NCBI RefSeq assembly: GCF_007896845.1
Contig: NZ_VOHS01000004.1
Location: 124,001 to 188,000 of the forward strand
Length of the DNA: 64,000 nucleotides
Source: Chitinophaga pinensis
GTDB taxonomy: Bacteria > Bacteroidota > Bacteroidia > Chitinophagales > Chitinophagaceae
Reading direction: 5' to 3'
Position numbers and translations under genes: made by a program. Position 1 is the first letter of the stretch. Every line of letters starts with the position of its first letter. Below are positions 21,719 through 25,815 of this stretch, piece after piece. The notes beneath the pieces are model-generated. The model was not told the origin of the DNA and searched no databases. It was given only the letters and a program-made list of their open reading frames with translations.

Positions 21719-22960
21719 TTAGTCCACAAGAACAAATTTGATAGGCAGATTGAAAGCAACATACACTGCTTTACCATCCTGCTTACCGGGATTCCATTTT
21801 GGCATGGCGGATACCACGCGGATGGATTCCTCTTCAAGGCCACCGCCCTTTAAAGCGCCTACCGTTTTTACTTTTGTGACATTTCCTTCCGGATCTACCA
21901 CGAAGTTGACGAAGATGGTGCCTGTTGTACGATTATCCTGTGCTGTTTTTGGATATCTGATCGAGCTGCCCAGATATTTTGACAGTGCTGCTTCTCCTCC
22001 GGGATAAGTAGGCGGATCACTGACGAAGGTATACACTGTGTTATCAGTGCCGGCGATAGCTGCTGTTTTTGTCGCATCGACAATATTGTTTGTATTCAGC
22101 TCAAGATCCCGCTGACAACCGATCACAAAGCCCAGTCCCAATACAAGCGGAATAACAATGATTCTTTTCATGAGCGAATAATTTGAACGTTGGGTAAACA
22201 ACATGAGTATACGACGTTTGACAGGCGCCTGTCCGAAAGTGTTGATCATGAGTGGTAGCCTTGTTTGTAGTGTTGCCTGCAGCAGCGTACGGGCATAATC
22301 TTCTGCCTCACTATCTTCCGTAGCGGCTTTGTCAGCAAGGAATTCATGCACCATGGCCAGTTCTTTTTTCAGCAGATAGAAGAATGGATTGAACCAGCAT
22401 ATGGCACCTACCAGCTGCATGAACAGCTTTTCTCCCGTATGGCCTCCACGTACGTGTTCCAGTTCATGTTTTAGTATCTGACGGCCTTCCGGACTTTCCT
22501 TTGTCAGCTCCTCTGCCCAGAATATGTTTCCGAAGAAGGAAAAAGTAGATTTCACCTGTGGATGATGAATTAGCTGGTAGCCATTAAACTGTGTTTTTTC
22601 TCCTTTACGTATCAGTCTTTTGACCATGAGCCAGTTACGGGCAATATTGATCAATAACAGAAGGGTAATAAGCAGATAAATGCCTGCCGGTAGCCAGGAA
22701 GTGAAATCCAGTCCGGCTTTTTGCATATTGTCAGCCACATATCCACAAACAACGATCATATCTAACTGCTGAGATGGTGCAGGCGTTGTGTTCATGGAGA
22801 ACTGAAGGGTGGGTATCAGCAGGGAAGCAATGACAGCCAGCAGAATAAAGGCCCTGTTCCAGCGGTGGAAGGAATTGTTTTTCAAAACGAAGGCATAATA
22901 GCCATACAGAATGCCCGAGCAAAGGAGCATTTTTATAACGTAAGGAAGAAATGCATTCAT
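21719..22960 (-). CDS. BlaR1-like M56 membrane metalloprotease with TonB-type C-terminus
   Basis: A 413-residue sensor/protease of the BlaR1/MecR1 class. Four hydrophobic segments lie in the first 290 residues (about 8-24, 37-54, 87-109 and 270-286). The zinc site is LKHELEHVRGGH (about 164-175) with a downstream Glu in MVHEFLADKAA. Where staphylococcal BlaR1 has a penicillin-binding sensor, this protein ends in a TonB C-terminal-like domain (about 315-413: YPGGEAALSKYL, YPKTAQDNRTTGTIFVNFVVDPEG). It would thus sense something other than a beta-lactam directly. It overlaps blaI by 4 nt (ATGA) and presumably inactivates it by proteolysis. The signal is unknown. Confidence 0.92.
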   Translation of the reverse strand: MNAFLPYVIKMLLCSGILYGYYAFVLKNNSFHRWNRAFILLAVIASLLIPTLQFSMNTTPAPSQQLDMIVVCGYVADNMQKAGLDFTSWLPAGIYLLITLLLLINIARNWLMVKRLIRKGEKTQFNGYQLIHHPQVKSTFSFFGNIFWAEELTKESPEGRQILKHELEHVRGGHTGEKLFMQLVGAICWFNPFFYLLKKELAMVHEFLADKAATEDSEAEDYARTLLQATLQTRLPLMINTFGQAPVKRRILMLFTQRSNYSLMKRIIVIPLVLGLGFVIGCQRDLELNTNNIVDATKTAAIAGTDNTVYTFVSDPPTYPGGEAALSKYLGSSIRYPKTAQDNRTTGTIFVNFVVDPEGNVTKVKTVGALKGGGLEEESIRVVSAMPKWNPGKQDGKAVYVAFNLPIKFVLVD

Positions 22961-23337
22961 GGTTGTTCTTTTTTAGCGTTTTTGATTTGTTGGAGCAGTT
23001 GCTCCAGTTCGTTAACACTGAGATCTTTCTCTTTTACGAAGAAGGAGACCATGTCTCTGAAAGAGCCGGAGAAGTACCCTTTTACGAAATGCTGCATAGT
23101 ATTACGGCTATATTCGTCTTTACTGATCAGGGCAAAGTACTGGTAGGATTTGCCGAAGGCTTTATAGTCTACAAAACCTTTGTCCTGCAAAATTTTGATC
23201 AACGTGGATACCGTATTATAATGCGGTTTGGGTTCCGGCATAAGGTCTATCAGGTCTTTTACAAAGGCCGGCCCTGCTTTCCAGAGTGCCTGCATTACCT
23301 GTTCCTCCGCCTTGGTGAGTGTTTTTACAGCTGTCAT
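22957..23337 (-). CDS. BlaI/MecI/CopY family repressor
   Basis: A 126-residue winged-helix repressor. LTKAEEQVMQALWKAGPAFVKDLIDLM (8-34) and YNTVSTLIKILQDKGFVDYK (about 40-59) form the DNA-binding domain with the family-typical recognition helix. The C-terminal half (about 80-120) is a dimerisation helix pair with the protease-sensitive linker between. It is the first gene of a two-gene unit with the M56 protease. Two tandem operators lie in its own promoter, so autorepression is expected. Confidence 0.95.
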   Translation of the reverse strand: MTAVKTLTKAEEQVMQALWKAGPAFVKDLIDLMPEPKPHYNTVSTLIKILQDKGFVDYKAFGKSYQYFALISKDEYSRNTMQHFVKGYFSGSFRDMVSFFVKEKDLSVNELEQLLQQIKNAKKEQP

Positions 23338-23360: not shown

Positions 23361-23391
23361 CTAAGGTATAACTACTTTTTTAGTTTACAAA
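23361..23391 (-). promoter_or_regulatory. Promoter of the blaI-blaR-like operon
   Basis: On the minus strand TTTG (23388-23391) and TACCTTAG (23361-23368, one mismatch to TAnnTTTG) are 19 nt apart. Both overlap or flank the repressor dyads. Confidence 0.65.
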
Positions 23392-23405
23392 CTATTTTTT
23401 TAGTT
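23370..23405. promoter_or_regulatory. Two tandem 16-bp operators AACTA-N6-TAGTT
   Basis: The dyads at 23370-23385 and 23390-23405 are both AACTA-N6-TAGTT and their centres are 20 bp apart, about two helical turns. The first fills the spacer between the -33 and -7 boxes and the second overlaps the -33 box. This is the layout expected for cooperative repression by a BlaI-type dimer. Confidence 0.75.
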
Positions 23406-23451
23406 GAACAGAGAAAGTGATATTTGCAGGGTATATGTATGGTCAGATATT

Positions 23452-23527
23452 GCTTAGATAGTACTTATCCTACGTTCATCCTACGTTCATGAACGTAGGA
23501 TGAACGTAGGATAAGTATTATCTAAGC
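23452..23527. repeat. 76-bp near-perfect palindrome with internal 11-bp direct repeat
   Basis: The two 38-bp arms meet without a loop at 23489/23490 and differ at one position only (23461 G against 23518 T, a wobble pair in RNA). Each arm contains the 11-mer CCTACGTTCAT or its complement twice in tandem. There is no T-run. It lies between the blaI operators and the IS element. Confidence 0.9.
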
Positions 23528-23576
23528 GGCATCTGTATGATCCTGAAATAGGTTTACACCTTAAAAAGTGTAAAAC

Positions 23577-23984
23577 ATGCAAAATTCAAACAATGAGGGA
23601 CGTAAGGGTCGTCTAGGAATGCAATTTCAATATGAGCAGTCATTCATGAATAAAGTTGTAGCCGAATATATGGCTGGGGACCAAAGCATGAGCCAGGTGG
23701 CTGCTCGTTATAAGATTACAAAATCACAAGTAGCTTATTGGTACTCCCTTTTTTCTTCCGAACTTAGGCAAACTACTTTGGAAAAACCTATAAAAGGTAG
23801 CGCTATGACAGAACAGGAAAAAAAAGAATTTGAGGCCTTAAAAAAGCAAAATGAAGAGCTGCGTAGAAAGCTGGATCATGCCAATATGAAGGCATTTGCT
23901 TTTCAGACAATGATTGAAGTGGCTGAAGATCAATTTAATATTGAGATCCAAAAAAAGCCTGGTACCAAACCGTCTGCAGAGTAA
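23577..23984 (+). CDS. IS3-family transposase OrfA
   Basis: A 135-residue DNA-binding protein with a helix-turn-helix (MSQVAARYKITKSQVAYWY, about residues 38-56) and a leucine-zipper-like helix (about 85-110). It binds the IS ends and on its own moderates transposition. The heptamer A AAA AAG at 23951-23957, in frame as xxA AAA AAG, is the canonical -1 slippage site of this family and lies nine codons before the stop. Slippage yields the OrfAB transposase. Confidence 0.93.
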   Translation: MQNSNNEGRKGRLGMQFQYEQSFMNKVVAEYMAGDQSMSQVAARYKITKSQVAYWYSLFSSELRQTTLEKPIKGSAMTEQEKKEFEALKKQNEELRRKLDHANMKAFAFQTMIEVAEDQFNIEIQKKPGTKPSAE

Positions 23985-24919
23985 AGGAACATTATCCTGA
24001 TAAACATTTGGGTAATATTTGCGGACTGTTTGGTAAAAGCAGACAAGCTTTTTATAAGCAAAAAAATATTAATCATCAATCTGCTCTTGAAATGGCTATC
24101 GTTCTTGAAAAAGCGGTACAAATCAGAGCTTCACAAAAACAATTGGGTACTAAAAAACTGCATCGAATATTATCACAAACTCTTCAACATCATAAAATCA
24201 AATTAGGTAGGGATCGTTTTTTTAATCTGTTGGCTGAAAATGGAATGCTCCTCCGTAAAAGAAAACGAAAAAAAGTACAGACTACTGATTCTAATCATCC
24301 CTTCAAAAAGTACCCAAATCTGATTAAAGAGTTGAATCTGGACCGGGCCAACCAGGTATGGGTCAGTGATATCACGTATCTACGTTTGGTGGGTTCCAAG
24401 TTCTGTTATTTGAGCCTTATAACGGATGCTTATTCAAGAAAAATAGTTGGTCATTGCCTGCATTTATCACTGGCTGCCGAAGGGCCTGCTGAAGCTTTGA
24501 AAATGGCTTTGGCGTCCATAAACACGCCTGGAAATCATAGCCTGATTCATCACTCTGACAGGGGTTCTCAGTATTGTAGTAATGGCTATATTAAGCTACT
24601 TCATGATAGTAAAATAAAAGTTAGTATGGCCGAAAAAGGTAATCCTTATGAAAATGCTATTGCTGAGCGTGTAAATGGTATATTAAAGACAGAATTTGCC
24701 CTGGACAGGTTATTTAAAAACTATGAGACTGTGGTAGCTGTGGTAGCAGAGTCTATCCATATCTACAATGACCAGAGGCCTCATACCAGTTGTGATTACC
24801 TGACTCCAAATCAGGCACATGCAAAACAAGGAGAATTAGTGAGAAGATGGCGAAATAAAAAGAAAAAGAGTCCCGAATCAGGATTAACAGTTGATACTGT
24901 AAACCAGATCCAGGACTAA
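23957..24919 (+). CDS. IS3-family transposase OrfB part (expressed as OrfAB by -1 frameshift)
   Basis: The catalytic half of the transposase, an RNase H-fold integrase. After slippage at 23951-23957 the frame reads on as AWYQTVCRVKEHYPDKH with no stop, joining smoothly to the orfB body. No ATG of its own is well placed (the earliest start-like codon is a TTG at 24008), so the fusion is the likely product. An HTH_21-type region lies early in orfB. The DDE residues are in WVSDITYL, HHSDRGSQY and NPYENAIAERVNG. The frame is intact to its stop. Confidence 0.92.
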   Translation, partial: AWYQTVCRVKEHYPDKHLGNICGLFGKSRQAFYKQKNINHQSALEMAIVLEKAVQIRASQKQLGTKKLHRILSQTLQHHKIKLGRDRFFNLLAENGMLLRKRKRKKVQTTDSNHPFKKYPNLIKELNLDRANQVWVSDITYLRLVGSKFCYLSLITDAYSRKIVGHCLHLSLAAEGPAEALKMALASINTPGNHSLIHHSDRGSQYCSNGYIKLLHDSKIKVSMAEKGNPYENAIAERVNGILKTEFALDRLFKNYETVVAVVAESIHIYNDQRPHTSCDYLTPNQAHAKQGELVRRWRNKKKKSPESGLTVDTVNQIQD

Positions 24920-25089
24920 AATCAGCAAAAAAAACTTTTCCAGGATTATATTTTAATATTGTAAAATTCAAACGGATTATCTCACCCAAACCGTAAACCT
25001 ATATCAGGACAAGACATCAGTACAATAACAAATAGGGGTGCAGTAAGAAAGAACCTTGTATACACACCGGATTATATGTTATAAATAGC

Positions 25090-25122: not shown

Positions 25123-25815
25123 ATGACAGAACAACCGATTATACAATTATCCAATGTGAATATCTATCAGGGAACTTCCCTGATCCTTGCAGACGTGAAT
25201 ATTACGGTGAACAAAGGAGAATTTGTATACCTGATAGGCCGTACCGGGACCGGTAAATCCAGTTTACTGAAAACACTTTATGGAGATCTGTCGTTGAAAG
25301 AGGGTGCCGGACAGGTAGTGGGTTTTGATCTAAAAAAGATGGACTGGAAGAAAGTGCCTTATCTGCGTCGTAATCTGGGGGTAGTGTTTCAGGATTTTCA
25401 GTTACTGACAGACAGGACAGTGCAGGACAACCTGAAGTTTGCTTTGAAAGCCACAGGCTGGACTGATAATAAGAAAATGGAAGAGAAGATCAATGACGTG
25501 CTGGATAAAGTGGGCCTGAATACGAAAGGTTTTAAGATGCCTTATGAGCTGAGTGGTGGTGAGCAGCAGCGTGTGGATATCGCCCGTGCGATGCTCAATT
25601 CTCCTAAATTGATTCTTGCGGATGAGCCAACCGGTAATCTTGACCCTGAAACCTCTGATGGCATTATGCAGTTGCTGTTCAGGATCAGCAGGGAAGAAGG
25701 AGCTGCTGTGGTAATGGCTACACATGATTATATATTATTACAGAAATTCCCATCAAGGGTATTACGTACCGAAAATGGCAAGGTAACTGACCACGCAAGT
25801 GTTACCTTTGTATAA
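25123..25815 (+). CDS. ftsE: FtsE-like ABC transporter ATP-binding protein
   Basis: A 230-residue ABC ATPase. Walker A is GRTGTGKSS (about 38-46), the Q-loop is GVVFQDFQLL, the signature is ELSGGEQQRVDIARA, Walker B is LILADEPTGNLD and the H-loop is MATHDY. The sequence and short length fit FtsE, the ATPase that with FtsX links cell division to peptidoglycan hydrolase activation. No ftsX lies beside it here, so it either pairs with a distant ftsX or belongs to another MacB/LolD-like system. It begins about 110 nt after the IS element. Confidence 0.82.
   Translation: MTEQPIIQLSNVNIYQGTSLILADVNITVNKGEFVYLIGRTGTGKSSLLKTLYGDLSLKEGAGQVVGFDLKKMDWKKVPYLRRNLGVVFQDFQLLTDRTVQDNLKFALKATGWTDNKKMEEKINDVLDKVGLNTKGFKMPYELSGGEQQRVDIARAMLNSPKLILADEPTGNLDPETSDGIMQLLFRISREEGAAVVMATHDYILLQKFPSRVLRTENGKVTDHASVTFV

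Follow-up and report, generated by a model that had tools for sequence, protein, structure and literature searches.

Dispersed 11-bp-phased palindromes in Chitinophaga, a REP-like class that probably serves as landing pad for an IS3-family element

Background

The locus examined here, in a 64,000-nucleotide stretch of Chitinophaga pinensis DNA (the window), has a long and nearly perfect palindrome directly against an insertion sequence (IS) of the IS3 family, and the question is whether the palindrome travels with the IS, or was there first and drew the IS to its edge. The palindrome turns out to be one copy of a dispersed repeat family that is built of 11-bp units and has arms that match each other within each copy, and the IS targets these palindromes in a preferred register and with one polarity. 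On this evidence the palindromes very probably form a REP-like class of 11-bp-phased repeats, older than the IS and serving as its landing pad. The interpretation given in an earlier note, made from the sequence of the window alone, is partly supported.

Structure of the palindrome

The palindrome and the genes on either side of it are as follows.

22957..23337, minus strand: gene of a BlaI-type repressor (Penicillinase_R, 1.6e-33)
23370..23405, no strand: two 16-bp repeats found by repeat search, probable operators of the repressor gene
23444..23535, no strand: full extent of the palindrome, 92 bp, 46-nt arms, 91% complementary, no spacer
23446..23489, no strand: left arm, four 11-mers, from the outside in GATATTGCTTA, GATAGTACTTA, TCCTACGTTCA, TCCTACGTTCA
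23452..23527, no strand: palindrome core, 76 bp, 38-nt arms, a single wobble pair
23490..23533, no strand: right arm, four 11-mers, TGAACGTAGGA, TGAACGTAGGA, TAAGTATTATC, TAAGCGGCATC, with the IS directly after
25123..25815, plus strand: gene of an ABC-type ATPase, FtsE-like as judged from its motifs

The repressor gene is adjoined by a gene at 21719-22960 for a BlaR1-type M56 peptidase with a TonB C-terminal domain.

The two arms of the core (23452-23489 and 23490-23527) touch without a spacer, and their lone mismatch is a G/T wobble, as seen in the sequence, in the repeat search and in the dyad scan. This is the palindrome that the earlier note had described, and its symmetry extends further, to 92 bp. 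Of the 11-mer CCTACGTTCAT, reported there as a tandem pair in each arm, the left arm has two tandem copies, and the right arm has two copies of its complement. What had been overlooked is that the entire arm consists of 11-mers, and that the IS begins precisely where the fourth of them ends on its outer side, 44 bp from the dyad; the distance of 6 bp between core and IS, and the lack of a T-run after the palindrome (past 23527 as well as past 23535), had been read correctly. Tandem Repeats Finder and a lag test likewise give a period of 11 in the arms, and the inner pair of 11-mers is their conserved part.

The symmetry is indeed far beyond chance: its score is 35, against best scores of 9-13 in 20 surrogate sequences of 64 kb, each drawn from a first-order Markov model. 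The palindrome folds with -39.4 kcal/mol as DNA (z -15.4) and with -67 kcal/mol as RNA (z -16.4). No other hairpin of the window comes close to it in strength, its arms being about twice as long as those of the other strong ones (nine listed, arms of 15-22 nt). No Rfam family matched the window above its gathering score.

A dispersed repeat family

A 101-base query gave 47 BLAST matches in its own genome (G000), which merge into 27 places; this number is a lower bound, as a sampled stretch contained one more relative (L214) that the query did not catch. The same query found matches in four of the 30 genomes searched, its own included. The 21-mer at the core, with at most one mismatch, is present in 17 of 79 genomes of the genus (reversed-pattern control, 0/79) and in eight of 396 genomes drawn from the order, six of these eight belonging to the same genus; the reversed control gave one match each in two of the 396. 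One relative assembled as a single contig, G056, has 35 core matches in 25 merged places. The search for further copies and for the palindrome in relatives, on which the earlier note had staked the existence of a family beforehand, thus leaves the family standing; the notion that the copies are remnants has to be given up, as the dyad scan finds many perfect palindromes among them.

The 11-bp build recurs among the copies. Among distinct hairpins with a score of at least 24, the best internal period was 11 in 23 of 27 in G000, 24 of 24 in G010, 16 of 18 in G013, 28 of 28 in G056, 3 of 3 in G007 and 6 of 6 in other genomes, a share that is biased by the choice of most of these loci for similarity to the palindrome. 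Six 20-kb stretches per genome were sampled irrespective of similarity (for G000, four stretches and the window). Hairpins with arms of at least 24 numbered two in 144 kb of G000, one being the window palindrome, and two in 120 kb of G010, and these four share the period of 11; G013 had two, and G007 and G001 one each, all with other periods, and the stretches from G008 and G014 had none.

The arms of one copy resemble each other more than they resemble the arms of other copies. This was measured on 19 of the 27 copies in G000, all loop-free, leaving aside eight (L034-L041) in which a small loop is present or the dyad is not clean. Arms of the same element are 98.6% identical over their inner two units, against 90.7% across elements; in the second unit the difference widens to 90.4% against 66.0%, and in the outermost unit there is little effect (53.6% and 49.4%). 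In 10000 random re-pairings the agreement seen between arms was never attained; hence the complementarity of the arms is maintained or renewed, while the sequence drifts among copies. Selection for a hairpin could account for this, and so could template-switch correction of near-palindromes.

Several draft contigs of G010 begin or end at a palindrome (L043, L044, L047, L049, L050, L051, L078, L079, L081 and L082, among others), and paired contig ends carry identical palindrome sequence. Perfect palindromes seem to break assemblies, and the family is therefore probably under-counted in draft genomes. In G013, eleven palindromes (L061-L064, L066, L070-L073, L075, L076) each occupy the middle of a longer dispersed repeat, of some 220 bp as judged by eye and with ragged outer ends, which is conserved for about 60-70 bp or more on either side of the palindrome.

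Genomic contexts and orthologous gaps

The surroundings of 65 copies are mixed: 39 lie between tandem genes, 12 between convergent and 12 between divergent genes, and two could not be assigned. These counts are rough, as the greedy rule for open reading frames (at least 90 aa) misassigns some genes; the window locus itself was scored as tandem because of an antisense frame across the repressor gene. One copy overlaps a 91-aa open reading frame. All-against-all BLASTP of the frames near the 65 copies gave no recurring partner gene, only the IS and small mixed clusters, the largest two having seven members.

The gap between the repressor gene and the ABC-type ATPase gene was examined at 12 loci in congeners, ten of which had an anchor. 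G007, which is 87% identical to G000 across the ABC gene and the gene that follows it, has a gap of 251 bp with neither palindrome nor IS, and in G042 and G014 the gap is 101 bp long and the palindrome is absent. The gap of G016 has only a short AT-rich hairpin of operator type, that of G037 a palindrome from another subfamily, and those of G010, G013 and G046 have arrays of 11-mers. The gaps of G007, G042 and G014 are candidates for the empty site that the earlier note had proposed to look for; common descent of the site and repeated arrival of palindromes would each fit this pattern.

The comparison of G000 with G007 was extended to other copies by way of 17 coding anchors, 15 of which were matched; the 15 loci were compared by BLAST and 11 aligned. 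At three (L018, L040, L032) the palindrome is absent from G007 together with a net 0.23-0.39 kb. By eye, G007 has a diverged palindrome at the same place in one case (L025), a different hairpin in the gap in three (L024, L027, L030) and hairpins of other kinds in two (L034, L038). No exact junction or target duplication of a palindrome was found in this comparison, and the differences among species, both in the repressor-ABC gap and in some of the gaps shared with G007, would fit local turnover as well as insertion of palindromes.

The IS3-family element and its target

The features of the element in the window are these.

23531..23533, no strand: ATC left of the IS; the right side has TCA at 25017-25019
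23534..25016, plus strand: IS3-family insertion sequence, 1483 bp, left end toward the palindrome, one of three copies in the genome
23534..23557, plus strand: left inverted repeat, 83% complementary to the right one
23577..23984, plus strand: OrfA, 135 aa, a protein with helix-turn-helix (HTH_28 and IS3 matched weakly, under the curated cut-offs)
24008..24919, plus strand: OrfB, 303 aa, DDE-type integrase core of the IS3 family (rve, 1.4e-20; NF033516, 241.4 bits, cut-off 160)
24993..25016, minus strand: right inverted repeat

The element has the terminal inverted repeats and short target duplication of the IS3 family; the window copy is one base short of a perfect duplication, and the other two copies in the genome have ATC on both sides. 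In IS3-family elements the frames of OrfA and OrfB overlap and are joined by a frameshift. Here OrfA ends at 23984, and the 324-aa open frame around OrfB starts upstream of that point. The other two copies in the genome (L056, L057) have stops in OrfB, which is open in the window copy.

All three IS copies in G000 abut a palindrome, and so do all nine copies of a version found in G056, the OrfB of which is 82% identical. In each of these 12 close copies the left end of the IS is proximal to the palindrome. The distance from the dyad to the insertion is 44.0 bp in nine, 55.0 bp in one and 42.5 bp in two; the last two lie in a subfamily with a 5-nt loop, and their distance is no whole number of units. 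A 3-bp target duplication is found in all nine G056 copies (ATC in seven, TAT in two) and in two of the three copies in G000. At several copies the next 11-mer of the array continues past the far end of the IS, which means that the IS has split an array that already existed. In five of the seven G056 arms of the ATC type, the hexamer GGTAT[CT] is present also at 33 bp from the dyad and was left unused; the local hexamer alone is thus insufficient to set the insertion site. That the palindrome attracted the IS, one of the possibilities in the earlier note, is strongly supported by these 12 of 12 contacts with a single polarity and a near-constant register, with the qualification that IS copies inside one genome are not independent events in the evolution of specificity. 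Palindromes without the IS are the majority, at 24 of the 27 places in G000 and 16 of the 25 merged places in G056.

The course of events would then be as follows. The window palindrome belongs to a REP-like family that is dispersed between the genes of the genus and made of 11-bp tandem units mirrored at the dyad; it would have been present first, and the IS3-family element would have been inserted later, at its edge. The transposition machinery of the IS appears to select 11-bp-phased arrays and, at palindromes, to place the element a set number of base pairs from the dyad (44, or four units, in most cases) with its left end toward the palindrome. What attracts the IS may be a cruciform, a bound protein or plain sequence, and the palindrome may or may not be the protein-binding array that the earlier note also considered. 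Recognition may be by the transposase, by a protein bound to the array or by an extruded hairpin, and the IS would gain a landing site free of genes.

In G056 a second IS, 51% identical, also adjoins a palindrome (L289, contig positions about 3866800-3868350), and 66 bp separate its right end from the dyad. The end motif of this second IS is found next to the palindromes of L290, L295 and L298 as well.

Arrays of 11-bp units elsewhere in the genus

More distant relatives of the IS within the genus gave 24 matches at E <= 1e-60, of which 21 were examined (OrfB 40-55% identical, ten genomes); the remainder are the G056 element just mentioned, handled separately, and two G082 copies without a locus. 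An array of period 11 (or 22 or 33) stands in the flank zones at 15 of these 21 loci. The 15 belong to seven genomes out of the ten and do not count as independent (G082 contributes 5 of 5, G075 4 of 4); arrays of another period stand there at five of the 21. Out of 35 period-11 arrays in the 21 loci, 30 fall in flank zones. Of the six loci with no period-11 array in the flank zones, three are copies of the same G073 element and the others come one each from G051, G074 and G087; at the G074 locus (L256), a period-11 array appears only on scanning the other strand. Next to those IS relatives of the genus that lie outside G000 and G056, tandem arrays were found and long 11-bp palindromes were not. 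Among 52 loci of relatives from other genera, one had a period-11 array and 14 an array of another period; hairpins with a score of at least 16 occurred near 11, and none was of the palindrome type by eye.

In G082, all five IS copies examined have 3-bp duplications; three copies split an array of CTGCCCTTCGT at identical phase, and the other two are no more than about 20 bp away from such an array. Arrays are common in this genome also without the IS: in 400 kb sampled, which contain none of the seven IS places, period 11 accounts for 26 of the 38 tandem arrays between genes (16 merged regions) and for 2 of the 32 inside coding DNA. An intergenic array in G014 (L231, 17708-17890) repeats the 11-mer TCGAAGAAGCA about 16.6 times; the palindrome core is absent from this genome.

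The sequences of the arrays differ widely among species and their period is constant; what is odd about the pattern is that sequences so unlike keep strictly to 11 bp. A bolder reading, which we put forward tentatively and would sooner doubt than accept, is that the intergenic DNA of the genus contains an unrecognised class of arrays, direct or mirrored, in which the exact period is kept while the sequence changes fast and is homogenised in each copy. The arrays would be maintained by a trans-acting factor that reads the 11-bp register, conceivably a chromosomal protein that binds arrays or an enzyme that copies 11-nt units, and a subfamily of IS3 elements would have co-evolved to dock there, measuring its insertion from the dyad.

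Origin of the palindromes

Other accounts of the palindrome and its neighbour were weighed against the landing-pad reading. The one that survives best, though we consider it unlikely, takes arrays and palindromes for neutral products of slippage and template switching, beside which the IS lands out of a preference for gene-free, AT-rich or hairpin-rich DNA. In its favour, array sequence varies widely by species while the period stays, and arms are homogenised inside copies. However, a general preference cannot yield a distance of 44.0 bp from the dyad in nine of 12 insertions with a single polarity, or the passing over of GGTAT[CT] at 33 bp in five of seven arms; slippage alone does not account for one dominant period either, even if this dominance, plain in the intergenic arrays of G082, is much weaker in G056 (6 of 20).

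A distinctly poorer candidate is a two-way transcription terminator or RNA-stabilising hairpin, selected at the RNA level, near which the IS happened to fall. Such a role would agree with the very stable RNA fold and with the preservation of pairing inside copies. The window palindrome, however, is upstream of both adjoining genes (on the minus strand that of the repressor and on the plus strand, past the IS, that of the ABC-type ATPase), a position that speaks against a terminator; the T-run is absent, the 65 copies have mixed contexts, and the fixed register of the IS is left unexplained. The view of the earlier note that this is not an ordinary terminator would fit both the site and the mixed contexts, and as far as sequence can tell an ordinary terminator is unlikely.

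The palindromes might also be REP sequences mobilised by a RAYT, a tyrosine (Y1) transposase, as in Proteobacteria, with the IS as a secondary guest. They are dispersed and intergenic, a Y1_Tnp gene is present in seven of the 17 palindrome genomes (above the curated cut-off in six), and Y1 subclasses with atypical flanking structures are known in Bacteroidetes (PMC6006769). Against this, Y1_Tnp was not found in the other ten, G000 among them; the core 10-mer does not occur within about 1.5 kb of any of the seven Y1 loci (one of them partly masked), other repeats flanking the gene instead; and the palindromes exceed 80 bp, as compared to REPs of 20-40 bp (PMC3733652). We thus give this origin very little credit. 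The search for a RAYT covered G000, a set of seven genomes and the full set of 17 palindrome genomes. RAYT was rejected as mobiliser on the absence of the gene in ten of the 17 and of an adjoining core in the rest, and no mobilising enzyme for the palindromes was found in these searches.

It is scarcely credible that the palindrome is a part of the IS, moved along as an end or sub-terminal structure. The left end of every close copy does have one, but the 3-bp duplication surrounds the IS alone in all nine G056 copies, the palindromes beside different IS copies vary in sequence and subfamily, and 24 of the 27 places in G000 have no IS. Moreover, G010 and G013 are rich in palindromes and have no match to the OrfB of the IS at E <= 1e-60, so this IS does not move them. 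An assembly artefact, in the form of an inverted chimera, can practically be dismissed: perfect palindromes do disturb assemblies, as the G010 contigs that start or end at one illustrate, but there are many copies with differing sequence and flanks, also in single-contig genomes such as G056.

Comparison with known systems

Insertion sequences that insert only into REP palindromes are known from five families, IS3 included, and comprise IS1397, ISKpn1 and ISPsy8 (IS3 family), IS621 (IS110 family), ISRm22 and others (PMC1525189). The window element, like IS1397, belongs to the IS3 family, and all 12 close copies conform to the 'type 1 association' of that paper, in which the IS occupies the same position of a dispersed palindromic repeat, a gene-free target, except that the constancy of position is near and not absolute. 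It differs from the elements described there in its phylum, in its palindromes, and in its insertion at an outer edge between 11-mers, measured from the dyad; the insertion sites of ISPsy8 and ISRm22 are at a symmetry axis, those of ISPa11 and ISPpu9/10 close to an end of a short REP (PMC1525189). The palindrome is real, structured and present in many copies, its IS is specific to the target, and the pair works like the known REP-targeting systems.

The palindromes resemble REPs and BIMEs in being dispersed and intergenic, in having species-specific subfamilies, and in being targets of IS elements (PMC2817692, PMC3116915, PMC3733652). REPs of the RAYT system are palindromes of 20-40 bp with a GTAG or CGTC tag (PMC3733652); the repeats described here are two to four times longer, above 80 bp, often loop-free and built of 11-mers. 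They also differ from RAYT-linked REPs in that no RAYT is linked to them and no Y1 gene flanked by cognate copies was seen in the 17 palindrome genomes, and in lacking a dedicated transposase they are like the CGTC REPs (PMC3733652). With MITEs they share the nature of dispersed inverted repeats without genes, unlike which neither a target duplication (in the G007 comparison) nor a matching autonomous element (among the genes near the 65 copies) was established. With the intrinsic terminators of G000 the window palindrome shares the form of a long intergenic hairpin, and it is set apart by the lack of a T-run, by the length of its arms and by its many copies with a common sequence.

Within the available text of open-licence literature on palindromic, 11-bp or IS repeats of Chitinophaga and Bacteroidetes, no description of these repeats was found, which is weak evidence of absence. 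The IS and its palindrome fall outside the REP systems that the available part of PMC1525189 describes, and point to a genus-wide class of 11-bp repeats. They offer a natural and testable example of a mobile element locating targets that are palindromic or phased at 11 bp, and integrating there by measure from the dyad.

Repeats of another kind accompany Y1 genes in four genomes. In G056, G046, G059 and G086 (L300, L301, L303, L304), which have one Y1 gene each, that gene is flanked by a CTCC..GGAG hairpin repeat near GTTTGTAGCCCGGGG. L152 and L153 are also among the loci with repeats of this kind, and similar ones are found in the gap between repressor and ABC genes in G010 and G037, two genomes where Y1_Tnp was not found.
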